Below, in pieces: positions 142-20,563 of a DNA stretch of 28,911 bases. Position numbers and translations under genes: made by a program. The stretch comes from a virus, in IMG/VR virus record IMGVR_UViG_3300048555_000331, positions 1 through 28,911 of that record. One strand, written 5' to 3'. Position 1 is the stretch's first letter. Every line of letters starts with the position of its first letter. Under the pieces are notes generated by a model that did no database searches, was not told the DNA's origin, and was given only the letters and a program-made list of their open reading frames with translations.

Positions 142-170
142 TTGACGCAGGGGTAAACACCTAGTAAACT
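142..170 (+). promoter_or_regulatory. Possible sigma70-like promoter before the 1076-residue gene
   Basis: A TTGACG hexamer at 142-147 is followed, after exactly 17 bases, by TAAACT at 165-170, which matches four of six positions of TATAAT. A start site 7 bases further on would leave almost no leader before the ATG at 181. The -10 overlaps the CCTA-N6-TAGG dyad, so a protein bound there would be expected to affect this promoter. The same -35 is not found at the other copies of the dyad, so the promoter reading is tentative. Confidence 0.35.
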
Positions 171-177
171 AGGTAAC
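160..177 (+). promoter_or_regulatory. CCTA-N6-TAGG dyad, copy A
   Basis: CCTA at 160-163, six bases (GTAAAC), then TAGG at 170-173 and TAAC. The ATG of the 1076-residue gene follows seven bases after TAGG. This is one of four similarly spaced copies at gene starts, the others being near 5444, 16274 and 20542. The AGG at 171-173 is also at ribosome-binding distance, so it may serve as a weak Shine-Dalgarno sequence. Confidence 0.55.
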
Positions 178-180
178 ATT

Positions 181-3100
181 ATGTCACGAGATCGATTTTA
201 TATTCCCGTAGTTAGCGATGTAATCCGTCTTTTTACTGGCGGTGGTGGTAGCAGCACACCTAGCACCCCAGACATACCAACAACTACTGTTAACAGGGCA
301 GATTATTTAAATACTTTAGACCCAATTGTCATTACTGACACAAATAGCAGTCCACTTACTACTAATTTAGTAAATGTTCCGATAGTAACGGGTGGTAACT
401 TGGCTCCACTGGACACGAATCAGCAGATTATGCTGATTACTGACCCGATGAGGAATGCTCAGATAAATGCATCGATTATAGGTGAAATTAATCGAGCCAA
501 TAGTCTTGAGGATTCAGTTGCTGGAATAGATAGTCACCCACTTATTCAGCAATTGAGGGATGGCGAGATTACAGCAGAGGACATTACTGGGGAAAGTGCA
601 GAAGCGGGGAATCAAATTGAGGCTACTCCGCTAAGTGCTAGTTTTCAGTATGAAATTAATGGCAATCCTGTCTCTAAGGAGACCTATGATGCTTATATTA
701 ATCCTGATGGGTCATCTAAGGTTCCTGAGGGCTTTCTTGATGGAATGTTTCCGACCAATGAGGGTACTGGTATTGAATTTGGCACTGAGAATAATACTAC
801 TCAACCGACTGTACCAGTAGTCACTGACACAAATCAGACAGTTTTTTATGATATTAATCAGACTAACCCTGATTTTGACAACAATACAACATCTCCGTTT
901 ACTTCAAATTTAAATCCAGCCGATTACGACTTGGATATGAGTAGGGACTCAGTGTTAGATGATTACACTGGTAGTGATTACAACTTTACGATGCCTATGC
1001 CTGATTTTACTGACATCAGTGTTAGGGATCAGATGATTGAGGCAATTAGGAGTTTTGAAGATGATAATTCATCGAAACCAAAGGAGCCTATTATTTCTAA
1101 TAAGGTAAAGAATGCAGTCAAGGGATTGGTTCCTATAATAAGAGAAGCAGCTAGTGGTGATATTATAGGAGCGCTCAAGGAGGGGAAGAAGTTAATTAAG
1201 GGGGAGCAAGACAAGGAGAAGAAAGCCAAAGACTCGGATACTCCGACTAAGACACCAGAGGAGATACAGGCGGAAAAGGATGAGGCTGATTATCAGAAGG
1301 CATTAGATATACTTGGCAGACCTGATCGTGCGGAAGCGCTGGCACAATCGCTGGCCAATGCAGGAATTATGGTTGATCCTCGAACAGTCCTTGAGGGTGA
1401 TGTGCTTTTTTCTGAGGATGAATTTTTTACTCTTCATAAAATAATACAGGAGGAGAAGAGGAAAAACGGGGAGTTCATGCAGAGCTGGGAAGACTTTTAT
1501 AAGTCAATGAGTGAGGTTGGCAAGATTGAGGAGTATGTACATACGGATGTTAGTTTTGATACCACAGGAAATCTGGAAGAGATAATTGATCCGATTAGGC
1601 AAAAGGTAATGATGGCAAAAATGATGGGCAAGAATTTGCTCGTTGTTTCGGATGAGGAGTATGCTCGAATGTTGTCTGAGAATCCTGATTATGCGGAGAC
1701 TGCATATTTGTCGGAAACTGAATTCATGAAGTATGCTGGTACGGATCAGTATTTTGGGGAAGGAGCCACTTCAGAAGGTACGGAGCCTGAGAAAGAGGGC
1801 TACATGAGAAGTTATGATGTCCTTAAGGCTATACGGGATGGTACATATGTTCATCCTGATCTTGAGTACGGGCCAGAATCAAAGGAAGACCCATTTTATA
1901 GTATTTCTATTCCAAATGCCGACACTAGTGGGCCAAGTGATGTAAGTAACATTTTGTTACCAGCTACTGCTGTAAATACGGCTCAAGATATAAAGCCCAG
2001 TGACCGAATTGATCAGTACTGGGAAAGTAGGGGGATGACTGAGGATGACTTTGGGAATCCTTTGTATGTAGAGGTAGACGGTCAAAAGGTAAGAAACCCT
2101 AACTTTGCTGCACCAATAAATGCCAATGATCTGGCACACCTGTATGATTTTAATGTCAATGATCCTGAGCATATCCAGACATTGTTCGATCCGCAGTCTA
2201 TGAACTTTGCGGATGAAAGTATATTTCCTCAGGGAACAAATCCTACCCCGCTAAATGTATATAAGCCTAATGAGGATGCATCTAGTGGGATGGTGGATCG
2301 CTATGGTGCAGATATGAGGTTTAAGGACACAAATAGAGAGCGTTTTGATAGATATTATCGCTCACTACCTGTGTCATCTTACTCTTCTTACGGAGAGCCT
2401 GCGGGGGCACGGAAAGCAGGAAACTTCATGTCTCCATTAATGGATAGGCTGGGTGATCCTTTTTCAATCGTAGGGGATAGTGTGGGTTATGCTCTTGATA
2501 CTGCAGCTAAGCCCTTTAATGCTTTGGGTGAGAAGCTTGGTGGGGCAGGGTTTATTCCGAATCTTATGGGAGCAGGTTTATCGGGAGCAGGTAACTTTGT
2601 TTCCAGTCTTGGGCAAAGAACAGATGATTTTATCGGAAACACAATCCCCGACTTTTTCTTTCAGGATGTACCGCAAACATTCAGAGGTGCATATCAGACG
2701 TATCAGGGTGATCCTGCAGGTAGAGTAAACCTTAGGCAAGGTGCTACGGGTATGCTTGATGGATTAGGGCAAACAGTAATGGTTCCAATAGGTGCAGGAA
2801 TGGATGGAGTACGATCAGTAGTACAGCCTTTTAGCAGACCTGAATCAGATAATCCATTGGATAATATGCGGTTCCCAACAGTGCCTCAACAAGGAGTTTC
2901 GCCACTCACTGAAATCATGAGAGACAAGTATTTCCCGCAAGATGGAGGTTCTTCTTCTAGTAGTTCGTATATACCTACAGGTGATTGGGTAGTAGAGGAC
3001 GGCATGATGCGTAACCCTAGTGCATACAATAGTCAAGATGGTGCAAATAGTAGCTCTGGTAGAAGAGGTGCTAAATTTGGAGGAGTATCAGATCGTCTTT

Positions 3101-3411
3101 CAGATAAATATTCTAAGAACGGAATTAATCTTAATTCTCCAGACGGCAGGGCAGCCTTTGAGTCTGCTTACGGGAAGGAAGCCTTGGATGATGCTCTTAG
3201 GGAAGTTGGATTAGGGCATCTTGCAGGAACAGGAGTAGCATTAGAAGGAGAAGAGCCTGACTTATTTAAAGTTGTAGATAAAGAAAGCAACCTAAGGACA
3301 CCTTATGGAGGTAAGACAATGCCATCTCCTGTAGATAAGCTTGGAGAAACCATTGCCGCAGCAGTAAAGGACGATGATGAAGAAGATGGAGCCTTTGATA
3401 AGGCACTTTAA
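181..3411 (+). CDS. Large probable virion protein (internal or tail-associated), 1076 aa
   Basis: I do not recognise a family. The protein starts with a Gly/Ser/Thr/Pro-rich stretch at about residues 19-37. A long Asn/Thr/Asp-rich, probably disordered region runs to about 290. A charged helical stretch follows at about 300-420, and there is a Gly/Ala-rich segment near 760-870 with short hydrophobic patches. There is no signal peptide, Walker motif or lysozyme-like motif. It is the second largest kind of product here and lies on the late strand. If the molecule is circular it lies downstream of the tail nozzle gene, where short-tailed phages often place internal or ejection proteins. That role is inferred from position and size only. 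The start is set by the first ATG, right after the dyad element. Confidence 0.7.
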   Translation: MSRDRFYIPVVSDVIRLFTGGGGSSTPSTPDIPTTTVNRADYLNTLDPIVITDTNSSPLTTNLVNVPIVTGGNLAPLDTNQQIMLITDPMRNAQINASIIGEINRANSLEDSVAGIDSHPLIQQLRDGEITAEDITGESAEAGNQIEATPLSASFQYEINGNPVSKETYDAYINPDGSSKVPEGFLDGMFPTNEGTGIEFGTENNTTQPTVPVVTDTNQTVFYDINQTNPDFDNNTTSPFTSNLNPADYDLDMSRDSVLDDYTGSDYNFTMPMPDFTDISVRDQMIEAIRSFEDDNSSKPKEPIISNKVKNAVKGLVPIIREAASGDIIGALKEGKKLIKGEQDKEKKAKDSDTPTKTPEEIQAEKDEADYQKALDILGRPDRAEALAQSLANAGIMVDPRTVLEGDVLFSEDEFFTLHKIIQEEKRKNGEFMQSWEDFYKSMSEVGKIEEYVHTDVSFDTTGNLEEIIDPIRQKVMMAKMMGKNLLVVSDEEYARMLSENPDYAETAYLSETEFMKYAGTDQYFGEGATSEGTEPEKEGYMRSYDVLKAIRDGTYVHPDLEYGPESKEDPFYSISIPNADTSGPSDVSNILLPATAVNTAQDIKPSDRIDQYWESRGMTEDDFGNPLYVEVDGQKVRNPNFAAPINANDLAHLYDFNVNDPEHIQTLFDPQSMNFADESIFPQGTNPTPLNVYKPNEDASSGMVDRYGADMRFKDTNRERFDRYYRSLPVSSYSSYGEPAGARKAGNFMSPLMDRLGDPFSIVGDSVGYALDTAAKPFNALGEKLGGAGFIPNLMGAGLSGAGNFVSSLGQRTDDFIGNTIPDFFFQDVPQTFRGAYQTYQGDPAGRVNLRQGATGMLDGLGQTVMVPIGAGMDGVRSVVQPFSRPESDNPLDNMRFPTVPQQGVSPLTEIMRDKYFPQDGGSSSSSSYIPTGDWVVEDGMMRNPSAYNSQDGANSSSGRRGAKFGGVSDRLSDKYSKNGINLNSPDGRAAFESAYGKEALDDALREVGLGHLAGTGVALEGEEPDLFKVVDKESNLRTPYGGKTMPSPVDKLGETIAAAVKDDDEEDGAFDKAL

Positions 3412-3718
3412 AAGGTTCAGGAAAGTTCTAAAGCTAGAAGAAGTATCCCTGCTGGCTTTAGTTCGTGCTTTTTTTGTTACCGCACCGTTTTGGTTGTTGG
3501 CAAATAAGCCTGAGATAAGAGAATGGAAAAGAAGATACAAGGTCTGCCTTAAGTGTCCGATTTTTGACAAGGAGTTAAGAAGGTGTCGCCCCTTTAACGG
3601 ATCGAGCCGTGGGTGCGGATGCTATGTTCCTTTTAGTAATATATTCTACGATGAGTGCTGGAGTAGAAAAGAATACGGTGGCGATTACGGTTGGTCATCA
3701 AGTGATCAAGAATGGTGA
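3374..3718 (+). CDS. Small Cys-rich, probably zinc-binding phage protein
   Basis: 114 residues. The N-terminus is basic. A hydrophobic helix (about residues 24-43) could lie on or in a membrane. It is followed by six cysteines at 58, 61, 71, 81, 83 and 95, arranged CxxCP, then C, then GCGC, then CW. This CxxC plus CxC arrangement occurs in many short phage proteins and suggests a metal-binding knuckle. The function is unknown. It overlaps the end of the 1076-residue gene by 38 bases in another frame, and AAGGA precedes the ATG at 3374, so the start is reasonable. An in-frame ATG 12 bases later is an alternative. Confidence 0.65.
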   Translation: MMKKMEPLIRHFKRFRKVLKLEEVSLLALVRAFFVTAPFWLLANKPEIREWKRRYKVCLKCPIFDKELRRCRPFNGSSRGCGCYVPFSNIFYDECWSRKEYGGDYGWSSSDQEW

Positions 3719-4011
3719 AGGGAATTGCTCCACCAGATTATAAAAAAGAGTTTATTTCCGTAAATATAGGCATAGGTTACGAAATTCGCTTTTATCATGA
3801 AGCGTTAGGAACTAGCCCAATCGGAAATCGATTAAGTAAGGGAAACTTGCCGCAGTTAGACCGCCACGCTGGCACTCAGGAAGAAGCTGATTTACTGTGT
3901 AGTAAATGGAACGATTGGCTAAAAAACGACCCACAGTCCATATACACATCTATGACTCGCCCAAAACGCAAATCATTGCGAAAACGAGATGCGAGAGCAT
4001 GGATTGGTTAA
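3712..4011 (+). CDS. Hypothetical protein, 99 aa
   Basis: Not recognised. The start overlaps the stop of the Cys-rich gene by seven bases, which suggests translational coupling. The body has no membrane segment. The C-terminal third is strongly basic (RPKRKSLRKRDAR, about residues 83-95), which could bind nucleic acid. It sits in a tightly packed run leading to the HNH gene. No function is proposed. Confidence 0.6.
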   Translation: MVKGIAPPDYKKEFISVNIGIGYEIRFYHEALGTSPIGNRLSKGNLPQLDRHAGTQEEADLLCSKWNDWLKNDPQSIYTSMTRPKRKSLRKRDARAWIG

Positions 4012-4109
4012 AGTTTTTTGAATACTACGAAATAGGTGATGAATATGTCATCCAAGCAATGCCAGAAATAATCGTATTCTGGGACTTTCAATTTATTGAA
4101 GAATTATGA
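3999..4109 (+). CDS. Possible very small protein, 36 aa
   Basis: Rich in aromatic and acidic residues (starts MDWLKFFEYYE). It fills the only gap between the 99-residue gene and the HNH gene. The ATG at 3999 overlaps the end of the previous gene by 13 bases. The stop overlaps the HNH start as ATGA at 4106-4109, a typical coupling arrangement. The same frame is open back to an ATG at 3906, giving 67 residues, but that start would overlap the upstream gene by more than 100 bases. The support is positional only. Confidence 0.4.
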   Translation: MDWLKFFEYYEIGDEYVIQAMPEIIVFWDFQFIEEL

Positions 4110-4420
4110 AAAGAAACACCCCTCTTCGAAGGAAGACCCCCTTAAAGCGAGTCTCGAAAACTCGACAAAAAGCCTTGAATACATACTCAAAACTGCGCCA
4201 GAGCTTCCTACAGGAATTGCCATTATGCGAGGTTTGTCCAACCGTAAAAATGGATCAAAGAAACCAAAGCACAGATGTACATCACAAAAAAGGAAGAGGA
4301 AAGCATTATCTAGATGTAGATAGTTGGCTATCTGTTTGCCGACAATGCCATGATCGGATTCATGTGAATCCGTCTTGGGCGAGAGAAAAGGGTTATTTAC
4401 TAGAACCAGATCGTAAATAA
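4106..4420 (+). CDS. HNH endonuclease
   Basis: 104 residues. After a basic N-terminus, the protein has a C41-x2-C44 pair, the HH doublet of the ββα-metal core at H59-H60, and a second pair C78-x2-C81 followed by H82 and H86. This order (CxxC, DVHH, CxxCH, H) is the usual small phage HNH nuclease with a structural zinc. Such genes often lie beside terminase genes and aid packaging or cohesive-end cleavage. Here it is the last gene of the plus-strand run and lies far from the terminase in this window, so it could also be a free-standing homing-type nuclease. Family certain, role uncertain. Confidence 0.85.
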   Translation: MKRNTPLRRKTPLKRVSKTRQKALNTYSKLRQSFLQELPLCEVCPTVKMDQRNQSTDVHHKKGRGKHYLDVDSWLSVCRQCHDRIHVNPSWAREKGYLLEPDRK

Positions 4421-4463
4421 GGAAAGCCCCGCAATGATAACTATGAATACAAATATGAATTCA

Positions 4464-4652
4464 TTAGAGCTCATTGTCATTGCTTTCCTTTAGAACGCAT
4501 TCTTCCTCGATATCCTTTTTCAGTCTTTCTTCGCGCTCTTTTACATTTACTGCGATTTCTTGTAATAAACCTTTGAATTTTAGTAATCTCGCAATACGAT
4601 CCTGAGGAGTTTCAGGCTCCACTGTATCGTGCCACATGGTTGCTATATTCAT
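4464..4652 (-). CDS. Hypothetical protein, coiled-coil-prone, 62 aa
   Basis: Not recognised. It is rich in Glu, Lys, Arg and Leu, with heptad-like spacing over about residues 20-55, so a single long helix or coiled coil is likely. It is the last gene of the minus-strand early operon and converges on the HNH gene. A 60-base AT-rich spacer with an A/T hairpin separates it from the preceding gene. It starts at the first ATG and has no clear Shine-Dalgarno. Confidence 0.5.
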   Translation of the reverse strand: MNIATMWHDTVEPETPQDRIARLLKFKGLLQEIAVNVKEREERLKKDIEEECVLKESNDNEL

Positions 4653-4680
4653 TGTCTAAGCTTTGATAACCAAAGTATAC

Positions 4681-4703
4681 CTCGAAAAAAAAAATTTTTC
4701 AAG
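4681..4703 (-). terminator. A/T hairpin after the 159-aa gene
   Basis: CTCGAAAAA at 4681-4689 pairs with TTTTTCAAG at 4695-4703 (nine pairs including one G-T) around a loop of five A on the plus strand, or T on the minus strand. It follows the stop of the 159-residue gene on the minus strand. It is AT-rich and weak, so attenuation or partial termination is only a possibility. Confidence 0.3.
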
Positions 4704-4712
4704 TTATTTAGG

Positions 4713-5192
4713 TTACAACATGAACATTGATTTATTTAGGTTATCATTAGGTACGAAATAAGCAGGCGCTCCATAGTTCCCGTAATCTTTTTCCCACTCT
4801 TCTTTCTTGGCATCCTCTGAACTTATCCATCCGTTGTAAATAAAGCCATCAAGGTTACCACTCATGCTTACACAGATCATGTCATTATCATCAGGACGAA
4901 CTTTGAGCTTTCCAGTATTGCTGAATCTTACCTCAATATTGTCTCCCACATCTGCCACATGAAAGGTATTCTTTGTGTGGCTGAAATATACACCCATCAA
5001 TTTACAGAACGCCATTTCTGCACATGATGACATTTGATGATTTAATAATAATTGCCCTGCGTATTTCTCTGGAAACCTTGATTTACGCTTGTTTACAACG
5101 GAATCTGCATGACGCATAAGTCCCGTTGTGCAACCCACAATTATCTCTTGCTCAGTTAAGCAGATTGTTCTTTCTTCCGTGCTAATTCCCAT
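4713..5192 (-). CDS. Conserved phage protein, possible PD-(D/E)XK-like nuclease
   Basis: 159 residues. The layout has AEMAF near residue 58, then ADVGDNIEVR at about 80-89, then KLKVRPDD and a GWI segment, ending in PAYFVP. The order of Glu, then Asp with an E-V-R strand, then a basic residue resembles restriction-endonuclease-fold proteins. Proteins of this shape are common in aquatic phages without a proven role. The nuclease reading is an inference from motif order. It overlaps the stop of the 95-residue gene by 37 bases. The last codons and stop (TTG TAA) lie inside a TTGTAACCTAA sequence that resembles the leader dyad. Confidence 0.6.
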   Translation of the reverse strand: MGISTEERTICLTEQEIIVGCTTGLMRHADSVVNKRKSRFPEKYAGQLLLNHQMSSCAEMAFCKLMGVYFSHTKNTFHVADVGDNIEVRFSNTGKLKVRPDDNDMICVSMSGNLDGFIYNGWISSEDAKKEEWEKDYGNYGAPAYFVPNDNLNKSMFML

Positions 5193-5443
5193 GCCGACCC
5201 TTGGTATCCGTCACCTTGCCAGACAAACACAGGAGTATATTCTCCTGTATAAGCTGATCCTATATTGTGATCGAAGTTTTCTATAGACTCCTCTAGAGAC
5301 CAATTACTTTTAATCATCTGCTTCTCGATTATTTTTTCGATTGAATATACCGCTCGTCCCTTTCGGAAATCCTTTCCAATTATGCAATCGTCAAAACCAT
5401 CAACAATAATTACACCCTCATCAAAATCAAAGTCTTCCAACAT
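5156..5443 (-). CDS. Conserved hypothetical phage protein, 95 aa
   Basis: No fold is assigned. The protein has a hydrophobic strand with an acidic pair (VIIVDGFDD, about residues 10-18), a central helix (SIEKIIEKQM) and a conserved-looking GEYTPVFV segment near residues 67-74. I recognise this pattern (VDGF, later Y/W-x-GE-x-TPVF) from small uncharacterised phage proteins. The start is the ATG at 5443, which directly follows the TAG of a CCTA-N6-TAG dyad, so it may have its own transcript within the early operon. Confidence 0.6.
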   Translation of the reverse strand: MLEDFDFDEGVIIVDGFDDCIIGKDFRKGRAVYSIEKIIEKQMIKSNWSLEESIENFDHNIGSAYTGEYTPVFVWQGDGYQGSAWELARKKEQSA

Positions 5444-5462
5444 CTAATAAATTAGGTTACAA
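5444..5462 (-). promoter_or_regulatory. CCTA-N6-TAG dyad, copy D
   Basis: On the minus strand this reads TTGTAACCTA, six bases, then TAG immediately before the ATG at 5443. It has the same spacing as copies A, B and C but lies on the opposite strand and in the early operon. The left half (TTGTAACCTAA) matches copy C exactly. Confidence 0.5.
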
Positions 5463-5476
5463 ATTAATAAAAAAAA

Positions 5477-5698
5477 TTATCCTCTTATCCATAATGGTAA
5501 AAACTTCCAGTCATTATCGTCGCACCCAAAAGGGCATGGCCCATGTGAGCCATCCTCTGGAGGGCATGACACTCCCTTGATATGCTCTTTCTGTAAATCA
5601 CAAGTGGCACAACCGCTTATTACCCAGCTCATAAACATAACTAAGATAAGCATCAAAATTAGAAATCCCCAATCTAGAATACTACTGTAGTCTCTCAT
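5477..5698 (-). CDS. Small membrane-anchored or lipoprotein-like Cys-rich protein
   Basis: 73 residues. One hydrophobic segment (residues 11-29) ends in I27-S28-G29-C30, which fits a lipobox. Five further cysteines or Cys-Pro pairs follow at 33, 45, 55 and 59. It could be an outer-membrane lipoprotein, or an inner-membrane protein with a metal-binding or disulfide-bonded periplasmic domain. The start overlaps the dNMP kinase stop as ATGA (5695-5698), so it is translationally coupled. The role is unknown. Lysis or superinfection functions are conceivable but not shown. Confidence 0.6.
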   Translation of the reverse strand: MRDYSSILDWGFLILMLILVMFMSWVISGCATCDLQKEHIKGVSCPPEDGSHGPCPFGCDDNDWKFLPLWIRG

Positions 5699-6222
5699 AT
5701 TACTATTTGTTTACTTATCAATTCATCAGGAAGACCTGCCTCGCTAATATGTTGATCATTATTCCCCACACCATTTCTTATTACACGCCAGACTTCTCCT
5801 TTTAATCTTCTGATCATTCTGCATTCATTTTCAAACCTAACATCATCTATAATGATGCGTCCCGACAATTGCTGCCGTTTCGCCTCGTCTTGATGTTCGA
5901 CTATTTCAATTTCAGCAAAATTAATCCAAATATCAGAATACATGGCTCTGCCCCATTCAGTCCCCAAAGACTGCAAACATTTCCTGCCTGTCACACCTTC
6001 AGGAAATCCGATAATCTGATCTTCCTTATCTTCATAGATGTAACGCTTCGGTATAATAACCTCTAGCATTTTCTTTATCGGGGTCGCAAAGCTGATAATC
6101 TCTCCACCAAGAGCATTGGCGAGAGTAGACTTACCTACTCCTTTGTGACCTGTTAGTCCGATGATCGGAGGGAATTTAAATTCTTCTCCTGAAATCGCTT
6201 GGCTAATTTTATATGTCTGCAT
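5695..6222 (-). CDS. Deoxynucleoside monophosphate kinase (phage type)
   Basis: 175 residues. A Walker A motif GHKGVGKS at residues 25-32 is followed by the segments FATPIKKML and SLGTEWGR and by a D-D-V-R-F-x-N-E motif, all typical of phage dNMP kinases of the P-loop kinase class. It would phosphorylate dNMPs to dNDPs and so feed phage DNA synthesis in the cytoplasm. The first 17 residues are an unusual extension, and the start region overlaps the SWIM protein gene by 70 bases. No Shine-Dalgarno is visible and no other ATG is available before the P-loop. It sits in the early replication operon, which suits the assignment. Confidence 0.88.
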   Translation of the reverse strand: MQTYKISQAISGEEFKFPPIIGLTGHKGVGKSTLANALGGEIISFATPIKKMLEVIIPKRYIYEDKEDQIIGFPEGVTGRKCLQSLGTEWGRAMYSDIWINFAEIEIVEHQDEAKRQQLSGRIIIDDVRFENECRMIRRLKGEVWRVIRNGVGNNDQHISEAGLPDELISKQIVI

Positions 6223-6434
6223 TTTTTAAAAGGTTTTTTTCCTGCCTTAAGCTTTGGCAGAACCATGTATTCATAATACTCGCACGAACATTCTCCGTAG
6301 CCATCATACTCCTCTAGGTCTACCATGTGAACGTTCATGGGGTTTCTTAGACTTTGAACCAAATAACGCTTCGCCTCCAGCCATCTTATCCCCATTCCGT
6401 TCTCTTGGTAATCCTGTTCCGATTCGTTTGCCAT
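6153..6434 (-). CDS. SWIM-type zinc-finger phage protein
   Basis: The reading frame is open from 6485, but that start is a TTG. The ATG at 6434, giving 93 residues, or at 6395 is more likely. With the 6434 start the zinc ligands are C49-x-C51 and C72-x-H74, the CxC-n-CxH signature of the SWIM domain, which binds DNA or protein. The segment WLEAKRYLV just before it looks like the conserved core of such phage proteins. It overlaps the preceding 77-residue ORF by about 130 bases in another frame and the dNMP kinase by 70 bases. One of these overlaps may reflect a wrong start or a frameshift. Confidence 0.65.
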   Translation of the reverse strand: MANESEQDYQENGMGIRWLEAKRYLVQSLRNPMNVHMVDLEEYDGYGECSCEYYEYMVLPKLKAGKKPFKKCRHIKLAKRFQEKNLNSLRSSD

Positions 6435-7168: not shown

Positions 7169-7184
7169 ATCTTTTAGTGTTAGT

Positions 7185-10509: not shown

Positions 10510-11089
10510 TTTCCCAGTCCAAATCCGCCTGTTTTATACCATCACCCTTTTTAATACTGATTTCTGCCGCCACAGCGTTCTTCCAGTATTCTGTCGTGCA
10601 AAACTTCTGCACAACTTTTAGCTCATCCAAATTTAATTCTTCTAAATGCCTTCCAGATAACTCACCAATCTTTGAGCTATTAGGTAACGGGTCATATTTA
10701 GATTTTTTTGGTAAGTTGTTAGGTTTTTTTTCTAATTCTTCTTGTCGTTCGATTGCTTGTTCAACTTCCTCATAGGTGGCAATCGAATCATCAACTCCAA
10801 TTCCTAGAAAACCCAAGCATCGTCCGACAGCACTTGTCTCGCAATTTTCTATAAAGCTTGTGGCGTTCACTCCGCTTTTACCCTTAATTTCTTCAGCGTG
10901 ACCAGTTGCTCTTACCAGACCTTCTGAGTCTAAAACTTTTGCAACCATGACCACCCTGTCCCCACTCATGTCGATAATACTTGTTTCTATCGACATATCC
11001 TTAAAGTTAGGATGACTCCTGAATGCCCTGACTCGCTCGTTCACGGCAACATAATCTTTAGACTTAATTTTCTGTGTCTTGAGCTTCAT
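10499..11089 (-). CDS. Single-strand DNA annealing protein (Sak3/ERF-like)
   Basis: 196 residues. The core has YVAVNERVRAFR (13-24), paired strands, a TGHAEE segment (62-67) and the conserved helix SFIENCETSAVGRCLGFLGI (78-97). The pattern E-x-x-E-T-S-A-x-G-R is the mark of a group of phage annealing recombinases. A variable linker and a short C-terminal domain with an acidic end (DWESDG) follow; such ends contact SSB in other annealases. It would pair complementary single strands made by the neighbouring nuclease. Family assignment is good, subfamily uncertain. Confidence 0.78.
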   Translation of the reverse strand: MKLKTQKIKSKDYVAVNERVRAFRSHPNFKDMSIETSIIDMSGDRVVMVAKVLDSEGLVRATGHAEEIKGKSGVNATSFIENCETSAVGRCLGFLGIGVDDSIATYEEVEQAIERQEELEKKPNNLPKKSKYDPLPNSSKIGELSGRHLEELNLDELKVVQKFCTTEYWKNAVAAEISIKKGDGIKQADLDWESDG

Positions 11090-11342
11090 CGTTTACCTCC
11101 GAATTCATTTGATGTCTCCACCCGACTGGTCTTTTGGGAGAAACTAAAATTGGCTCTTGCAAAGAATTAACTTCTTTGAGGGAAACCAAATGGCGTTTTC
11201 TGTGAGGGTACTTCCAAGACCTTAGTCGGTCTCTTGCAATCAGGTCATGAACGCTTTTGTTCGACGCATAACCTAGTAGCTTCCTCGCCTCTGTAATTGT
11301 AATTAAATCATCATCCACACTCATGCAAACGATGTTTATCAT
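11064..11342 (-). CDS. Small HTH/excisionase-like DNA-binding protein
   Basis: 92 residues. Residues 11-60 fit a MerR/excisionase-type winged helix: ITITEARKLLGYASNKSVHD, then a basic wing RSWKYPHRKRHLVSLKEV. The C-terminal 30 residues look disordered. It is the first gene of the minus-strand early operon, directly across an AT-rich divergent intergenic region from the RHH gene, so it may control early transcription or excision. No Shine-Dalgarno precedes the ATG at 11342. A second in-frame ATG at 11324 is equally possible. It overlaps the annealase gene by 26 bases. Confidence 0.65.
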   Translation of the reverse strand: MINIVCMSVDDDLITITEARKLLGYASNKSVHDLIARDRLRSWKYPHRKRHLVSLKEVNSLQEPILVSPKRPVGWRHQMNSEVNDEAQDTEN

Positions 11343-11477
11343 AAAATAATTTAAAGAAAAGAAAAAAATTAAAAAAAATTAAAATGTTTTATTTATTTTA
11401 CTATTTTACGTAAATTTATATATTTTGTTGACTTTGTATATAAAACTGTAGTTCATATATTTTCTTGTCCATTAAAT
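11343..11477. promoter_or_regulatory. Divergent early/lysogeny control region
   Basis: A 135-base, very AT-rich spacer between oppositely transcribed genes. It holds a perfect ten-base palindrome TTTACGTAAA at 11405-11414 and a plus-strand TTGACT hexamer at 11428-11433. A clean -10 at normal spacing is not evident. The region must hold the promoter of the early operon on the minus strand and that of the RHH pair on the plus strand. The palindrome is a natural operator candidate for the adjacent DNA-binding proteins. Confidence 0.6.
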
Positions 11478-11705
11478 ATGAGTGTAAAAAAGTACCAAAT
11501 AGTAGGAGTTAAGCTAGATACAGCTTTGCTCCAGCAGTTTCAGAAAGTCGCAGCTTTACTAGAAATGAATCAATCAGACTTAGCGTCAAAAATGATTCGC
11601 GACTGGATGGAAATGCTTGAAGAGAAATCAACCCCGCAAATACCGAGTTTCCTTGCAATGGCTCGTTTTGCAAAAGAATACAAAGGAGAAAAACTGAAAA
11701 AATGA
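11478..11705 (+). CDS. Ribbon-helix-helix (CopG-like) regulator
   Basis: 75 residues. The pattern YQIVGVKLDTALLQQFQKVA is a beta strand followed by a helix, and LEMNQSDLASKMIRDWMEML gives the second helix with the conserved N-x-S turn, as in CopG/Arc/MetJ-type dimers. It is transcribed away from the early operon and sits in the lysogeny region next to the integrase. It is therefore the only visible candidate for an early repressor, or it may regulate itself. The stop overlaps the next ATG (ATGA). No Shine-Dalgarno is visible. Confidence 0.65.
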   Translation: MSVKKYQIVGVKLDTALLQQFQKVAALLEMNQSDLASKMIRDWMEMLEEKSTPQIPSFLAMARFAKEYKGEKLKK

Positions 11706-12279: not shown

Positions 12280-13236
12280 TTATACTGGAGTTATACTAAA
12301 GTATTCCTTAGCTTCTGACTCACTAACATTGGATTCACAGTAATTATGATGAAAAGTTCTATGGTTAGTGTGACCTGTAAATCGCATACATTTTTCCTGC
12401 CCCAAAACCCAAAAGCCGTAGGAACAAAAACTGTGCCTCATGGCATCATGCCCCAAGGCTCCACAATGTCTGTCTCTAGCAAGTCTAAATGAATTGTAGG
12501 TGCATGGTTTTACCTTGAAATTCTGAAGCCAGACTTTGAGATTGCAAGGTAATCCACTCAAGGTTCTTGTTCTTCTTCCTTTAGCAGAAGAGCCTGAAAT
12601 AATTATTTTATCATCGCTAAAGGTTAATTCACGACACGCCTCGTAAGGGCGAAGTCCCGCAAAAAGCTGTAGGCAGACTCGTAATTTGTGTTGGGATGGG
12701 ATGCGGTTTAAAATTTCTTGAGTTTTTTCAACGGAAAGAATTGGTATTTCTTTTTCATCCACAAATATTTTTCCAAGCTTAATTCCGTGAAATTTATCCT
12801 GTGGACACCATCCTTTTTCCCCGCACCAGTTGAGAAAGCTGGCAACATCATTTCGATACCCCGATCTCGTGTGAGTATTGTTTTCTTTTTCAGCAAACGA
12901 TTTAACATCATGGCGCTCAATTTTCTCAACAAGCGTGTTTCCAATAAATTGATTGAACTGATTTAGACGCTGTCCATATGTTTTAATCGTCGCACGACGC
13001 ATATTTCTTTTTTCGCAGTCTTGTAAATATTCTTCTATAGCTGGGGTTATACCGCAGTGATTACCTGAATATTTTGGGGTGAGCAATCCATTGGAAAAAG
13101 TATTTAGCTCTTCATCAATATGCTCCTGAGCTTTTTTCTTTGTTGTAAAGAATTTGCGATAAATTCTGGTGTTTTGTGAGCGCAAAGTGACGCAAAATCT
13201 TCTTTTTGTCTTATCGTGGGTAATTTTATGTTTCAT
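12280..13236 (-). CDS. int: Tyrosine-recombinase integrase
   Basis: 318 residues. The N-terminal part (1-60) is a basic arm-binding-like domain. Residues 62-150 form a SAM-like core-binding domain. The catalytic domain carries R196 (GLRPYEA), K219 (SAKGRR), H263-x3-R267 (HDAMRH), H289 (TGHTNH) and the nucleophile Y299 (HHNY). All six catalytic positions are present, so the enzyme should be active. It would recombine attP with a host tRNA-Val gene. The attP core lies 150 bases upstream of its start, the common phage arrangement. It is transcribed on its own, opposite to the flanking operons. Confidence 0.93.
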   Translation of the reverse strand: MKHKITHDKTKRRFCVTLRSQNTRIYRKFFTTKKKAQEHIDEELNTFSNGLLTPKYSGNHCGITPAIEEYLQDCEKRNMRRATIKTYGQRLNQFNQFIGNTLVEKIERHDVKSFAEKENNTHTRSGYRNDVASFLNWCGEKGWCPQDKFHGIKLGKIFVDEKEIPILSVEKTQEILNRIPSQHKLRVCLQLFAGLRPYEACRELTFSDDKIIISGSSAKGRRTRTLSGLPCNLKVWLQNFKVKPCTYNSFRLARDRHCGALGHDAMRHSFCSYGFWVLGQEKCMRFTGHTNHRTFHHNYCESNVSESEAKEYFSITPV

Positions 13237-13240
13237 CAGC

Positions 13241-13370: not shown

Positions 13371-13386
13371 TATGTTGCTAAAAAAA

Positions 13387-13436
13387 TGGTGGGAGATACT
13401 GGATTCGAACCAGTGGCCTCATGCGTGTCATGCATG
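13387..13436 (-). other. attP: attP core: 3' half of a tRNA-Val(GAC) gene
   Basis: On the minus strand this is a complete anticodon arm (CATGC, loop ATGACAC with anticodon GAC, GCATG), a five-base variable loop, a T arm (ACTGG, loop TTCGAAT, CCAGT), the 3' acceptor strand ATCTCCC, discriminator A and CCA. The 5' half is absent: no GGGAGAT or D arm lies upstream. A half tRNA beside an integrase is the classic phage attachment core, which restores the host tRNA after integration. The crossover probably lies within the anticodon arm to T arm part. The 50-base length marks the recognisable part only. Confidence 0.85.
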
Positions 13437-13472
13437 TAATTAATAGCTTAAACATTGGGATTTAGTGATACT

Positions 13473-13494: not shown

Positions 13495-13537
13495 CTTGCA
13501 TAACCAAAGTGTTGGTTTCATAGTCAAAGAGGTGGAA

Positions 13538-14751: not shown

Positions 14752-16264
14752 TGCAGATTCTATTCTCGAAAAGCTGGACGATACAAAACAGCAAAATGAG
14801 AAGGAATTAGAAACATGGCATCCTAGCTTATCAGGCAGTCAGCTAGAAATTTTTGACTCTACTGCAAAATACATACTTGCTTACGGGGAGAGAGCGTCTG
14901 GAAAAACATTTGTGCTTGGTGGGCATAAGTTAGTTCGTCATGCGTATGAGAATTTTAATGCTCTATGTTTAATTGTAGTAGGTGTTAAAGCTCAAGCTAC
15001 ACAAGGGGGAGTTTGGCATAAGTTGCAGACCGAAATACTTCCTGAGTGGGAAGATGGCATCGGAATTAAGTACACAGACGAAAAGCTTGATCTACAAAAA
15101 CAACCTTACTTGGATATAGAGAATAGATTTGGTGGTTGGTCTCGTGTTTCTCTTTTGTCAGCTCCATATGGAAATATTTTAGTAGATCGAATAAAAGGCT
15201 ATGAGCCTAGTTATGTCTTCGTAGACGAATTGACAAATCTTGACACATCAAGTTACTTCGATGCCCTTGTTCAACAATTAGGCAGAAGGCAAGGGATTGA
15301 TGGAATTCAGCAGTACGCTGCTGCCTGTAATCCCGCAGGCCCAAGTCACTGGGTGTACAAGAGATTTTTTCAAATGCCACTAAAAAATGGTGATTGGAAT
15401 CCTGATTATCATGTGGTTCATGTGAAAATACAGGAAAACGAAAAGAATCTTCCTAAAGGATATTATGATCGTGTAATGGAAGGTGTAGCTGGCGATCCCA
15501 TCGAAGCTAAGCGGATGTTAGAAGGAGAATGGATTGACCGCCCTGCAGGAGACGCAATATTCGCACCGTACTACAATAAAAGTTTACATGAGATACCCAT
15601 AGATACGCGGATTGTTCCAACAAACGAATTCCCAGTAGTGATTGGATACGATTTAGGTTCGGTAAATAATGCCTGTATTTTCATGCAATGTTTAGTAGGA
15701 GCTGAGAAAAGTGTGTGGACTGTTTTCGATGAGCTAGTTTTTATCGATAAAAAAATACCGTATACAAGTATTATTCCCATGCTATATCAAAAAATGAAAA
15801 AGTGGGAAGATAAAGTTGGTGGATTAAAATGGTATCACATTTCAGATAATTCAGCATTTAACCAATATAGAGCCAAAACTGGTTCTTACGATGTACGAGA
15901 TTTTGAGGAGATATCGAAAGCGAAGTGTGAAATGTTTGATTTGGAGCCGATCCGACTAAAAGCAGCTCCAAAGTTTTCTGGAAGTGTGCAGAGTAGGGTA
16001 AGGTTATTGATGGCAAAGCTTATGCAGGAGGAAATTGTATTTAGTGCAAGAAATGCGACAGATTCACTTAAAGCAGTTAGAAATCTAGTTTCTCAGAAAG
16101 GAAAAGATGGAAAATACGATCCCTCATTAGAGCTTAAACCTCAGCGATCTGTTTATCTTCATGCCTTTGATGCAATGACTTATGCTTTGATTTATTTTGA
16201 TTCCAGATTAGGTACGCCAACCCCAACAACACAAAAGGCTACTATTTTGGAAATTAATGCTTGA
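14729..16264 (+). CDS. terL: Terminase large subunit
   Basis: 511 residues. The ATPase domain has Walker A GERASGKT at 53-60 and Walker B YVFVDE at 162-167, with the catalytic Glu. A coupling-motif region lies near CNPAGPSHW (200-208). The C-terminal RNase H-like nuclease shows the three expected acidic sites: D308 in GYDLGS, D373 in ISDNSAF and D481 in HAFDAMTYAL. It would translocate DNA into proheads and cut it at the ends. The protein is full length and no residue is missing. Confidence 0.95.
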   Translation: MPKIRKIDADSILEKLDDTKQQNEKELETWHPSLSGSQLEIFDSTAKYILAYGERASGKTFVLGGHKLVRHAYENFNALCLIVVGVKAQATQGGVWHKLQTEILPEWEDGIGIKYTDEKLDLQKQPYLDIENRFGGWSRVSLLSAPYGNILVDRIKGYEPSYVFVDELTNLDTSSYFDALVQQLGRRQGIDGIQQYAAACNPAGPSHWVYKRFFQMPLKNGDWNPDYHVVHVKIQENEKNLPKGYYDRVMEGVAGDPIEAKRMLEGEWIDRPAGDAIFAPYYNKSLHEIPIDTRIVPTNEFPVVIGYDLGSVNNACIFMQCLVGAEKSVWTVFDELVFIDKKIPYTSIIPMLYQKMKKWEDKVGGLKWYHISDNSAFNQYRAKTGSYDVRDFEEISKAKCEMFDLEPIRLKAAPKFSGSVQSRVRLLMAKLMQEEIVFSARNATDSLKAVRNLVSQKGKDGKYDPSLELKPQRSVYLHAFDAMTYALIYFDSRLGTPTPTTQKATILEINA

Positions 16265-16273
16265 TTTTTGATT

Positions 16274-16293
16274 CCCAAAAAACTAGGTTACAA
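16274..16293 (+). promoter_or_regulatory. CCCA-N6-TAGG dyad, copy B
   Basis: CCCA at 16274-16277, six bases (AAAAAC), then TAGG at 16284-16287 and TTACAA. It has seven of eight dyad bases with the same spacing as the other copies. The ATG of the acidic gene follows eight bases after TAGG, so the AGG may also act as a weak ribosome-binding site. Confidence 0.5.
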
Positions 16294-16295
16294 TC

Positions 16296-16556
16296 ATGCA
16301 AGATTTACTACAGCTTGGTATGGATGAAGACTTAAGGGATGTATTGGATGGTCTTTCAGCAGGTTCTAAAGTGAAAATGATGATTGAGGTCACAGTTTCA
16401 GAAATAGATGAAGATCGTTTCGCGGGAACAGTAGATCGAATCCACGAAGATGTTGAAGTCATGGCGGAAGGGGAGGAGTACGAACCTGAAGAAGAAGTCG
16501 AAGAAGATTCAGAAGAAGAGCCCGAAGAAGAGTACGAAGAGGAAGACGAGGAGTAG
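16296..16556 (+). CDS. Acidic protein with poly-Glu tail, 86 aa
   Basis: Residues 1-55 form a small domain (KVKMMIEVTVSEIDEDRFAG) that looks beta-rich. Residues 56-86 are almost all Glu/Asp. I recognise no function. Small acidic proteins between terminase and portal occur in other phages. The dyad element eight bases upstream suggests its own regulation. The GAA/GAG-rich 3' end doubles as coding sequence for the next gene in the +1 frame, which makes both proteins extreme in charge. Confidence 0.7.
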   Translation: MQDLLQLGMDEDLRDVLDGLSAGSKVKMMIEVTVSEIDEDRFAGTVDRIHEDVEVMAEGEEYEPEEEVEEDSEEEPEEEYEEEDEE

Positions 16557-16884
16557 TGCGACTTCAGCAAGTACATTAATTGATCTTCATTACGGGAGAA
16601 TCAATCTTGTTAAGAGGTGGAACAGGGAAAGAATAGAGCGATTACTGGGTTTTTTAAGACTTTCTCAGGCGGAGTTGGCAAGCTTAGTTGCGGTTCCTCA
16701 CAATACCTTTGGGACGCAAGTTACTCGTGGCAAATTCTCCCCCCCTGTATGCCTTCTCCTTACAATTCTGGAGGGAAGGTTTTTAAGGGGAATAGCCCCA
16801 GATGTAATAACAAACGTTTTTGATTTTTATGGTCGATCTGAAAGTACTGGAAGAAAAAGGCACGACGCAAAAGAGGCTTCGTGA
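16450..16884 (+). CDS. XRE-like helix-turn-helix protein with basic overlap tail
   Basis: 144 residues from the only in-frame ATG. Residues 56-110 (NRERIERLLGFLRLSQAELA, then LVAVPHNTFGTQVTRGKF) resemble an XRE-type HTH. The first 36 residues are Lys/Arg/Ser-rich only because this frame reads the neighbour's Glu codons shifted by one. Translation might start at 16450, at a rare codon after 16560, or by a +1 shift near the acidic gene's stop (16554-16556). The HTH part is real in appearance and overlaps the portal gene by 56 bases. A role in late regulation is inferred. Confidence 0.55.
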   Translation: MLKSWRKGRSTNLKKKSKKIQKKSPKKSTKRKTRSSATSASTLIDLHYGRINLVKRWNRERIERLLGFLRLSQAELASLVAVPHNTFGTQVTRGKFSPPVCLLLTILEGRFLRGIAPDVITNVFDFYGRSESTGRKRHDAKEAS

Positions 16885-19111
16885 AGTCTTTACTGCAAAG
16901 TCTGGAGATGACTTAGTGATTAGAGAAAGACTGCAGGATTTAATACAATCAAGGATTCATGAGGGTATTTATCATTCTTGCAGCAATCATTCACTTTATC
17001 TTGCTGTTGATTTAGCTTGGGATTCACTGCCCATAAATAAATTTACTATACCGTTATTACAGTACGCACAGGGTAAAATCGATATTAAGTCCTGTGCTTC
17101 TAAAATGGAAAACATAGACCCACAACTTAAAGAGAAGTTTGTGGAGTATGATGACGAAGATAATGTTAAGGACATTTCGCTAACTCGTCTCTATGAAGTG
17201 AGTGTTAGTTTAATCCGCTCCTACATAACTCGTCGGGTTGCAGCACAGGTAAGTAGGTTCTCGAACTTATTTCCATATTTTAAATATAGTCCAAGAGGGA
17301 CTGATATGTCTTCTAAGATTCGCTCGGAGGTTTTAAGCCAACGAGTAGAAATAATGACTGAGCAATTTAATTACAGGCATATTTTCTCTCAGTCGATTCG
17401 TAGTATGTTTATGTACGGATTCACTGTTCTTTTCCCTAAGGAAGCATGGACTAGAGAAGTACATTGGCGAAAGGGTGAGGATGGCGAGATGGAGTCATTT
17501 GTAGAAAAAGAAGGTGTTTCTTTTGTGGAGCCACATCCTACACGAGTTATTTATGATAACTCTAAGCCTTTGTCTGGAATAAATTCAAATCTTGGGCCTT
17601 CATGGGTCGGATATTGGGATATTGTCAGATATTCATCCGTTAAGAACAATCCAGAGTTTTGGAATGTAAACGAAGTCACTTACACCAATTCTCTACAGGG
17701 AATAGTAAATGCATATCGTGATTTCTTTGACTTCTACTATGATCCAAAGATTTTAGCGTTCCCGTCTAAAAAGGATGATTGGCCTTTTCAAAATGAAAGA
17801 GTAGCTCATACAGGGATTTATGCAGGCGAAGATGAAGATAAGGGAATGTTTCTCTCTAACATCTTTTTAAAGCTTAATCCGAAAGCAGAAGGGCTTGGGG
17901 ATTATCCATTCGATTGCTGGCTTAAAGTGGTGGTGGCTTCTGACGAAACTGTTTTGTATGCAGAGTGGCTCCCTTCTTTACCTGCTATTTACGGTGGAAT
18001 TAACCAAAATGATGACCGTATGGCTAATTGCTCTATGGCACATGATTTAATGCCATATCAGGATCAAATGAATAATATTATTTATGCGATGCTTCATCAC
18101 ATGAAGATCAGTATGTTTAAGATTATTTCTGTAGATCAAGATGCATTAGATGATGATGTAAAGGAGTATTTAATGGACGCCTTGGCAGAAGATACTTTTT
18201 ACGAAAAGCCTAAAGCTTTATTTTACTCAGGTGCAAAAATAGCAGACTTAGGAATAGATGCTAAAAATATCCTGACTGTAGTAGATGTTAGCAAGGAATT
18301 ATCGCAGGGAATAAATCAATCTCTACAAAGTTTATTTCAGTTACTTAATTTGGTTGAGCGGCTCATGATTCTTTCTCCGCAGGAATTAGGTCAAGCAGCC
18401 CAGAGAGAGATTTCAGCTACTGAGGTTACAGAAATAGCTAACTCTACGAATACAATTTACTCATTTATTTCTGAGGGTATTGATGAGATGAGGGCAGCGG
18501 TTAAAAAAGTACTTTATGAGCATCTAATTTCTTGCTCCACAACTGAGTTTAATGTGCCTGTGAAGCAAAGATTTACTGCTAAATCCATTCGTGGGGCAGG
18601 CTTAGATATAGACGATACTGGAGATCAGGATGAGATGCCTTCAGGCAGAAACATTATTGGTAACCCAGAAAACCTTGTGCATGAGTTTATATTCTCAAGC
18701 AGAGATGGAGCTGAGAGGCAGAGAGATACACAGGCTGCTCAGACGCTGGGGCAATTATTTCAGCAAGTAATGTCTATTCCTGATATGGCAGGAGCTTTAG
18801 GCAAAGAGAGAATATTCAATATTCTTAATGAGCTATTTAGATTATCAGGAGTGGGTCACGATCTTGGCTTAGAGGTAGACGAGGCAGACACACAGACAGA
18901 AATGGAAATGGGCCAGCAGGCATTTATTGATGACATGAGGAAGAAATTTCCGCAGATCGAAAAAGTGCTACAGCAGCTTATGATGCAATCACAAGCACAA
19001 ATGCAACAACCCCCGCAAGGCGGAGGTGCTCGCCCACCAATGGCCCCTACACCTCGTATGCCTCAGCCACCCCCTTCAATGCAAACTCCGCCCCCAGCAC
19101 CCCCAGCATAG
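16829..19111 (+). CDS. Portal protein
   Basis: About 760 residues from the ATG at 16829. A TTG nine bases earlier is the other option. Length, position right after terminase and before scaffold, a long helical C-terminal part (about 480-570) and the Pro/Met/Gln-rich end (from about 725) fit portals of short-tailed phages. The segment MPYQDQMNNIIYAMLHHM (412-429) looks like a wing/stem helix. Twelve copies would form the ring through which DNA enters. No canonical motif exists for the family, so this is by position and composition. Confidence 0.8.
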   Translation: MVDLKVLEEKGTTQKRLREVFTAKSGDDLVIRERLQDLIQSRIHEGIYHSCSNHSLYLAVDLAWDSLPINKFTIPLLQYAQGKIDIKSCASKMENIDPQLKEKFVEYDDEDNVKDISLTRLYEVSVSLIRSYITRRVAAQVSRFSNLFPYFKYSPRGTDMSSKIRSEVLSQRVEIMTEQFNYRHIFSQSIRSMFMYGFTVLFPKEAWTREVHWRKGEDGEMESFVEKEGVSFVEPHPTRVIYDNSKPLSGINSNLGPSWVGYWDIVRYSSVKNNPEFWNVNEVTYTNSLQGIVNAYRDFFDFYYDPKILAFPSKKDDWPFQNERVAHTGIYAGEDEDKGMFLSNIFLKLNPKAEGLGDYPFDCWLKVVVASDETVLYAEWLPSLPAIYGGINQNDDRMANCSMAHDLMPYQDQMNNIIYAMLHHMKISMFKIISVDQDALDDDVKEYLMDALAEDTFYEKPKALFYSGAKIADLGIDAKNILTVVDVSKELSQGINQSLQSLFQLLNLVERLMILSPQELGQAAQREISATEVTEIANSTNTIYSFISEGIDEMRAAVKKVLYEHLISCSTTEFNVPVKQRFTAKSIRGAGLDIDDTGDQDEMPSGRNIIGNPENLVHEFIFSSRDGAERQRDTQAAQTLGQLFQQVMSIPDMAGALGKERIFNILNELFRLSGVGHDLGLEVDEADTQTEMEMGQQAFIDDMRKKFPQIEKVLQQLMMQSQAQMQQPPQGGGARPPMAPTPRMPQPPPSMQTPPPAPPA

Positions 19112-19114
19112 ATT

Positions 19115-20425
19115 ATGGAAGAAGAAAAAACTGAAAACACTGAAGTTACTAACGAGCAGGAGCAACAACCTCAAGAGGGAGAATCCAATAAAATATTTGA
19201 TGCTCTTTACAGTGCTGTAGAGGGAGAGCCTGAGGAGGAGGAGGAGGAGCGTCAGGAGTATAAGCCACCTGCCTCAATCCAGAGTGCTTTACACGAAATC
19301 GAGCAAGAGTCAGAGGAGCCTGTTGCAACTGAAGAGACTGAGGAAACAGAGCAAGCAGAAGCCCCAAAAGAAAAACCCAAACCTAAGCAGAAAGTAAAGC
19401 GAAAGGTAGTCGATCCAAAGTTTGATGTTGCACCTCGGCCCACAGTACGGCCTCGTCCTACTCAGGTTAAATCAGAAGACCCATTTGTCTCAGATTTGCT
19501 TCCAGAGGAAAAAGAGAGATATGAACTAGCTAAATGGGCATCTCAGAATATGCCTGATCAAAAAGGCTTGGATAAGCAGTATTTAGACTACTTTAAAAAG
19601 CAAAAAGCGTTCATTGATAAAAATCAGGATTACGGTGATGATTTTGCGCAATCATCAGAGTGGAAGCAATTTCAGGAAAAGAATCGCCCCAAGGTCAATG
19701 TGCGTGAAATAGAACGAAAAAAGATCGTCAACGAAGCCACTGAAGAAGCAAAGAAGGCATATCAACCTAAGATTGCGGAGCAAGAGCGTGAACTTTTTAA
19801 GATTCGTCAAGAGCCTGTAGTTCAGCAAAAAATACAAGAGGCAAAAAAAGTCTTTAACCAAGTCGTACCTGAAGAAGTAAAAAATAACTTTGATGAGTAC
19901 GCCAAAAATAACCCTATGGAGTCTGGTATAATAGGGGGGACAGTTAAAAATGCTTTCACGATGGTGGAGGAGTTTTTGAATGTTATGAATGGCTTAAAGC
20001 AGGTTGATAATAATGATCCTGTGCAAAAAGCCGTAAATGATTTCATTAAAGCTGAGCAAGATAGGTTTATAAATAGTGGTAAGACTAGACGGAACGGAAA
20101 GACATTTGTAAGAATGGAGCGTTTTCGTAATGTCCCTGCTGCACAAAAAGAAAAATACTACACTTTTACAGAAGAGGATGTTGTCAATTTGCTTAGTCTT
20201 AGAGCGAAGGAACAGATTGATAAAAAGATCAAGCAATCGCACGATAATCTGCGTAAAGCGGGATATGTGCGGCAAGGAGAGCAACCTGTACAGGAGCCTG
20301 TACAACCTATTCCATCTGCGCCACCTTCTGTTCCTACACCTGCACCACGAGCTGGAACTAGCGTCCCTGCGGGTCAATCACAGTCTGATCAAAAAAATAC
20401 AATACTTTCACTGCTTGACCTTTGA
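19115..20425 (+). CDS. Capsid scaffolding protein
   Basis: 436 residues. The N-terminal 130 residues are Glu/Pro-rich and disordered. A long charged helical region (about 140-370) with coiled-coil character follows, then a Pro/Gln-rich tail. This composition and the place between portal and capsid genes are typical of scaffold proteins that direct prohead assembly and then leave. No protease motif is visible here or nearby, so removal by exit rather than cleavage is inferred. It starts three bases after the portal stop. Confidence 0.72.
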   Translation: MEEEKTENTEVTNEQEQQPQEGESNKIFDALYSAVEGEPEEEEEERQEYKPPASIQSALHEIEQESEEPVATEETEETEQAEAPKEKPKPKQKVKRKVVDPKFDVAPRPTVRPRPTQVKSEDPFVSDLLPEEKERYELAKWASQNMPDQKGLDKQYLDYFKKQKAFIDKNQDYGDDFAQSSEWKQFQEKNRPKVNVREIERKKIVNEATEEAKKAYQPKIAEQERELFKIRQEPVVQQKIQEAKKVFNQVVPEEVKNNFDEYAKNNPMESGIIGGTVKNAFTMVEEFLNVMNGLKQVDNNDPVQKAVNDFIKAEQDRFINSGKTRRNGKTFVRMERFRNVPAAQKEKYYTFTEEDVVNLLSLRAKEQIDKKIKQSHDNLRKAGYVRQGEQPVQEPVQPIPSAPPSVPTPAPRAGTSVPAGQSQSDQKNTILSLLDL

Positions 20426-20449
20426 TAGTCAAAAGTAGCTTTTGGCTAT
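20425..20449 (+). terminator. Hairpin before the capsid gene
   Basis: An 11-base-pair stem with a three-base loop (TAG) spans 20425-20449 and begins on the last base of the scaffold stop. Its core is AGTCAAAAG paired with CTTTTGGCT, with one G-T pair. There is no T-run, so it may be an mRNA-stabilising or processing hairpin between scaffold and capsid rather than a terminator. Confidence 0.45.
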
Positions 20450-20495
20450 ACATTAAGAAGGCATAAATTCCGATACTTGCCCTATATTAATTTTT

Positions 20496-20523
20496 TTTGA
20501 GGTTGTTTTGAATATTTGAGGTT
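20496..20523 (+). repeat. Direct repeat TTTGAGGTT upstream of the capsid gene
   Basis: The nine-base word TTTGAGGTT occurs at 20496-20504 and 20515-20523, 19 bases apart, in the 154-base leader of the capsid gene. It may bind a regulator or be chance in AT-rich DNA. Together with the downstream dyad it suggests a controlled promoter here. Confidence 0.3.
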
Positions 20524-20541
20524 TAAAACGGTATTATGGTT

Positions 20542-20563
20542 GTAACCTAATAAACTAGGAAAC
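20542..20563 (+). promoter_or_regulatory. CCTA-N6-TAGG dyad, copy C
   Basis: GTAACCTA at 20542-20549, ATAAAC, then TAGG at 20556-20559 and AAAC. This is the most complete copy, with the extended left arm TTGTAACCTAA also seen in copy D and the TAAACTAGG right arm seen in copy A. It lies 20 bases before the capsid ATG. The leader after it has no Shine-Dalgarno. Confidence 0.6.

Follow-up and report, generated by a model that had tools for sequence, protein, structure and literature searches.

A palindrome at the gene starts of an uncultivated marine phage group is probably the operator of a single phage regulator

Introduction

The first 28,911 nucleotides of IMG/VR virus record IMGVR_UViG_3300048555_000331 (hereafter the window, meaning this whole stretch) raise the question of why one inverted repeat should stand beside the start codons of several genes on both strands. 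A first-pass annotation, made from the sequence alone, had described a spaced dyad, CCTA-N6-TAGG, at four gene starts and proposed a common regulator, a phage promoter or a leader RNA. The dyad is real, but it is larger and more widespread than was described. The element consists of a palindrome of 22-24 bp, namely two inverted half-sites of ~9 bp around an AT-rich spacer of 6 bp, and marks the beginning of roughly ten to twenty genes per phage. We consider it probable that this palindrome is the operator of one dimeric phage regulator, acting in trans over host-type promoters and likely as a repressor.

The palindrome in the window and in related phages

Exact copies of the dyad are located at 160-173 and 20546-20559, a CCCA variant at 16274-16287, and a one-sided copy at 5443-5456, adjoining the minus-strand ATG at 5443. 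The word AAAC-TAGG and the arm extensions GTAACC/GGTTAC were both found as annotated. The exact bare pattern occurs twice in the window (0.25 expected; 2 of 100 shuffles reach this count), whereas with one mismatch it occurs 8 times, against 8.7 expected. The extended 22-mer GTAACCTA-N6-TAGGTTAC (4 places with up to 4 mismatches versus 0.83 expected, equalled in 3 of 200 shuffles) is stronger than the bare dyad, but within 28.9 kb alone it is not decisive. The one-mismatch count is what chance matches in AT-rich intergenic DNA would give. The probability of this explanation is nevertheless negligible: it is opposed by matches to an independently learned matrix, by conservation at orthologous genes and by the consistency of the element class within each genome, and is already refuted by the relatives.

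About 100 related contigs, many of them partial, were gathered by capsid and terminase searches, and genes were called with a simple home-made caller. The window sits within a 61-kb contig (G001) at 99.95% identity. Palindromic matrices were trained on intergenic DNA. Because expectation maximization, when started from the genome of the window, strayed into AT-rich DNA, the matrices were taken from relatives, and the class A matrix (tGTAACCTA-N6-TAGGTTACa) was learned from five other phages with the window's genome excluded. A generic palindrome counter, applied to new phages, had too little power.

With the relatives' matrix, G001 contains 5 sites at a score of >=12, with none in 30 shuffles, and 8 sites at >=9 as well as further weaker ones. 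All four annotated sites are recovered, but the count of four was too low: a fifth window site (element 2, Table 1) and several sites outside the window were found in addition. All five window sites stand at gene starts. Relatives hold up to 22 copies per genome. The pattern GTWAC-N12-GTWAC occurs 15 times in G014 (0.27 in shuffles), 13 of these intergenic, and 10 times in G011 (0.30 in shuffles).

The elements fall into three sequence classes (GTAACCTA, GTAACACG and TGACCTAA), with essentially one class per genome, located at the same genes. Besides class A, the matrices are tGTaACAC.aaattt.GTGTtACa for class B and TGACCTAATATATTAGGTCA for class C. Across classes the element recurs before the same genes: before the acidic gene in 16 of 17 genomes, the capsid gene in 15 of 17, the gene of the 1076-aa protein (cluster c18) in 10 of 12 and the c35 gene in 7 of 8, where the genomes counted are related and not phylogenetically independent. 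In nearly all relatives, a ~22-bp palindrome of varying spelling is found behind a TATTAT/TATTCT box upstream of the capsid gene. The distant GC-rich relatives G024 and G027 keep a version of the element at the acidic-gene and capsid promoters, and their acidic-gene element again adjoins TTGACT/TTGACA. The presence of the element at orthologous promoters in 15-16 of 17 genomes, and the single class per genome, thus speak for a common regulator. We note that in the closest relatives (L003-L006, L007, L008 and L045) a GTGAA..TTCAC-like palindrome replaces the capsid element, and that their acidic gene still has a class A element where readable.

Promoters, start codons and symmetry of the element

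When sites are oriented by their genes, conservation is strong in the upstream half-site and weaker in the downstream one, which commonly ends in ..TAACATG. The distance between element and ATG peaks at -2 to +2. TTGAC is found within the 20 bases before the element in 26 cases, against 2.9 expected, and several elements overlap a TTGAC-17-TAAACT/TAATAT promoter. In the c18 family, TTGAC stands exactly 17 bp before TAAACT, TAATAT or TAAATT in the centre of the palindrome, in classes A and B alike; the genomes with this geometry before the c18 orthologue include G003, G006, G007, G008, G011 and G015. At the capsid gene, the -10 hexamer TATTAT (20532-20537) lies just upstream of the palindrome, which would therefore cover the transcription start, and relatives have an equivalent -10. 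The earlier suggestion of a phage promoter holds insofar as the element overlaps sigma-70-like promoters; it is not a promoter in its own right.

A Shine-Dalgarno-like word precedes 5 of the 83 genes with an element (6%) and 43% of other genes, a deficit that arises in part from the element occupying the Shine-Dalgarno position. This position at the start codon, together with the ability of the arms to form a short stem, would suit a 5' RNA hairpin or a translation-initiation element with the AGG as part of a ribosome-binding site, as the first-pass annotation had considered. An RNA leader or riboswitch-like element should, however, show compensatory changes in its stem. In none of the three classes do the arms of individual sites pair better than randomly dealt arms (0.646 vs 0.663, 0.672 vs 0.672 and 0.573 vs 0.585 in shuffles), so that a hairpin is unsupported, and Rfam gave no match. 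The -10 can moreover fall inside the element, which makes its full transcription often unlikely. As to the AGG, it is the upstream half that is conserved, the downstream half in most cases has ..TAACATG, and Shine-Dalgarno words are mostly missing. A function in RNA is therefore very unlikely; arms that do not covary are as expected for the consensus half-sites of a dimer.

A model of repression

We propose that one dimeric regulator, acting in trans, would bind to each palindrome. The operators would be superposed on promoters of the host sigma-70 type, either centred on the -10 or located at +1 to +22, and the mRNAs would begin at the ATG or a few bases before it, being nearly leaderless. 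The bound regulator would most likely block RNA polymerase and so keep some 10-20 dispersed transcription units (late operons, several early genes, capsid, tail and the recombinases) silent in a prophage, or until the appropriate time in an infection, or both. The regulator is most simply a repressor because the sites overlie host-type promoters at a variable register. The deficit in Shine-Dalgarno words at the element genes further predicts that many of the phage mRNAs are leaderless.

Alternatively, the element could be recognized by a phage-specific activator or a factor modifying RNA polymerase, which would turn these promoters on. Such a factor would account for the presence of the element in almost all promoter-like regions of these genes and for the many copies that have no obvious -35. 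We regard it as unlikely, given that the element is palindromic with a variable register over the -10 or +1, that host-type TTGAC and TATTAT remain beside it, and that activators rarely centre on the -10.

A role of the proposed repressor in lysogeny fits the gene content of G016 and L065, which have no element and also, in the 9 kb to the left of the terminase gene TerL, neither attP integrase nor ribbon-helix-helix (RHH) genes. Several points weigh against the model. The GC-rich G024 has elements and no detected integrase, which weakens the link to lysogeny; repression is deduced from geometry only; and the RHH, HTH_17, XRE-like and integrase candidates for the regulator each fail a test (see below). 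No element is present at the head of the early operon, namely in the HTH_17/RHH intergenic region, although this is where one would look for a lysogeny operator. The shared ancestry of the genomes counted and the built-in part of the Shine-Dalgarno deficit also have to be set against the model.

The HTH_17/RHH intergenic region (11343-11477) has in several relatives direct repeats, GTGAA.., TAGCAAA.. or AACGATAA.., before a TTGAC promoter (equivalents were compared in G003, G005, G006, G007, G011, G014 and G015). This region lacks the palindrome and seems to be under a control of its own.

Candidate regulators

Because the operator switches class from genome to genome at fixed gene positions, comparison of genomes offers a test of candidate regulators. 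The RHH protein, which the first-pass annotation had named as a possible binder, is syntenic in classes A and B. The class C contigs G018, L089, L090 and L096 have the element but no RHH gene in the 9 kb to the left of TerL, and in G018 no such gene was detected anywhere; all four contigs are partial. An operator for an Arc/CopG-type protein calls for the cognate RHH in every genome with operators, which is not the case here. The promoter of the RHH gene itself has no element. The HTH_17/excisionase-like gene (11064-11342) exists in two types (X44 and X110) that swap within operator class C. The XRE-like helix-turn-helix (HTH) protein of the late operon also occurs in phages without the element, and its recognition helix varies within class A; the HTH part is kept in 17 of 17 genomes, and its match to Pfam Phage_CI_repr (E 8.8e-4) is below the cut-off. 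The attP integrase (Family II) is of one subtype in G005 (class A) and G018 (class C). A phyletic profile of gene families against the element-less G016 and G017 gave no clear regulator.

The best candidate found is a predicted one, the Family I lambda-Int-like recombinase, whose gene lies outside the window (16523-17560 of the reversed G001). As a special case of the proposed repressor, it would act in the manner of MrpR of phage SPbeta. Its predicted fold combines an N-terminal beta-beta-beta-alpha domain with a core resembling lambda integrase. In the first set, 12 contigs with the element encode the protein, each at full length, and the element-less G016, G028, G030 and G031 have a version without the N-terminal domain. 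The element or a variant precedes the Family I gene or operon in most of 11 examined cases, clearly in classes B and C, with weak scores in class A and as a half-site only in G010. On the other hand, its catalytic residues R-K-H-R-H-Y look intact, unlike those of MrpR; G025 has the N-terminal domain and no clear element, while G027 has elements and only a partial match to the domain; and the association is confounded by phylogeny. Owing to the two exceptions, the intact residues and common ancestry we hold this assignment to be possible but doubtful. More doubtful still is a fuller version, in which a catalytically intact-looking Family I recombinase doubles as genome-wide regulator and controls its own gene through dif-like palindromes fused to near-leaderless promoters. 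If true, the recombination machinery and the late-gene programme would form one circuit.

Each genome encodes two recombinases, and the inverted arms (~9-11 bp) with their 6-bp spacer resemble a recombinase core site, so that the copies might be dif- or lox-like recombination sites of a phage tyrosine recombinase and not operators at all. We consider this highly improbable: the central 6 bp vary between sites, which would block exchange, and different phages have their copies before the same genes.

Comparison with known systems

The first-pass annotation knew of no earlier description of such an element. Mycobacteriophages do, however, have inverted repeats that abut gene starts and accompany promoters, namely the extended start-associated sequences (ESAS; PMC3203893, PMC11373665), and these and SPBRE/MrpR are the closest parallels, although neither fits fully. 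ESAS of cluster K mycobacteriophages (see also PMC12699233) are imperfect inverted repeats just upstream of many starts and, like the present element, are kept with the same gene families. They overlap SigA-like promoters with a spacing of 17-18 bp, which is found here for the c18, c2 and capsid genes and not for all sites. The left repeat of ESAS is nearer to the consensus than the right, as the upstream half-site is better conserved here, and the consensus differs between subclusters as the class differs between our genomes. In contrast, ESAS repeats are of 15-17 bp with a variable spacer, whereas here the arms are of ~9 bp and the spacer is fixed at 6. ESAS also stand upstream of a separate start-associated sequence (SAS) at the ribosome site; here the palindrome abuts or overlaps the ATG, and the SAS motif GGGATAGGAGCCC was not seen downstream of the element in the alignments. 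The phages, and probably the host phylum, are different; with the present element, inverted repeats that abut start codons and overlie promoters are known from a second, independent case.

SPBRE of SPbeta, bound by the master repressor MrpR (PMC10516654), is likewise repeated in many promoter regions, and in both systems a protein of the recombinase fold is concerned, here as a candidate. SPBRE is, however, a motif of 15 bp, and MrpR has lost its recombinase function, whereas Family I, a candidate binder only, keeps R-K-H-R-H-Y. The stoperators of cluster A mycobacteriophages (PMC6550527, PMC9283540) are dispersed in up to ~30 sites per genome, at which the bound repressor blocks transcription elongation, and their consensus also changes between subclusters, in those phages together with the immunity repressor. 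They differ in being asymmetric 13-bp sites of one orientation, mostly off promoters, while the present sites are palindromic and located at promoters and start codons. The recombinase gene intS of prophage KplE1 (PMC2951348) is reported to be tightly regulated in its own right; the present phages likewise have the element at recombinase genes, with the difference that it is repeated genome-wide and not only at an integrase gene.

Hosts

Two verrucomicrobial single-cell genomes (L161:5484-10141 and L162:4371-10141) carry an integrase 84% identical to that of G011, a c7 gene and a 47-aa capsid fragment 96% identical to G011, in regions that may be a satellite or prophage remnant. The related integrase and the capsid-gene fragment suggest Verrucomicrobia as hosts, and this uncultivated marine phage group, whose regulatory layout the element reveals, probably infects them. 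The capsid protein has no match among 50,697 deposited phage records. The element could be the binding site of a host regulator used by the phage, with element classes that track different hosts. In two verrucomicrobial genomes with a related integrase, however, class A has 0 matches at 3 mismatches (control 1-2) and class B is not in excess, and we find a host regulator hardly likely.

Features of the window

Table 1. Elements, promoters and genes of the window; scores are matrix scores.
Feature	Position	Strand	Remarks
Element 1, putative class A operator, TAAACACCTAGTAAACTAGGTAACAT	153..178	+	score 12.2; 2 nt before ATG of 181-3411
Sigma-70-like promoter, TTGACG-17-TAAACT	142..170	+	-10 in centre of element 1
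1076-aa late protein gene, cluster c18	181..3411	+	
Element 2, missed by first-pass annotation	4692..4717	-	score 11.4; upstream of gene 4464-4652
Small early gene, c35	4464..4652	-	
Element 3	5436..5461	-	score 9.0; upstream half-site GTAACCTA intact; downstream half overlaps ATG of gene 5156-5443
Early hypothetical gene, PHROG 13182	5156..5443	-	
RHH-like protein	11478..11705	+	Pfam: no match; judged weak as regulator
attP-adjacent tyrosine integrase, Family II	12280..13236	-	subtypes do not track operator class
Element 4, TTGATTCCCAAAAAACTAGGTTACAA	16267..16292	+	score 14.9; upstream of acidic gene
Acidic protein gene, c2	16296..16556	+	between TerL and portal
XRE/CI-like HTH open reading frame	16450..16884	+	overlaps acidic gene in another frame, same operon
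Sigma-70-like promoter, TTGAAT-18-TATTAT	20508..20537	+	ends 4 nt before element 5 palindrome
Element 5, TTGTAACCTAATAAACTAGGAAACCT	20539..20564	+	score 14.8; in capsid-gene leader
Capsid-protein gene, c4	20580..22475	+	

Bases 1-18 of the window are GC-rich, lie outside the match to G001 and are probably an assembly artefact. A sequence resembling a tRNA 3' end (13385-13440) beside the integrase gene is likely attP. Where the acidic gene and the HTH reading frame overlap (within 16296-16884), the DNA is rich in GAA/AAG and encodes an acidic tail in one frame and the Lys-rich, basic N-terminal tail of the HTH protein in the other.

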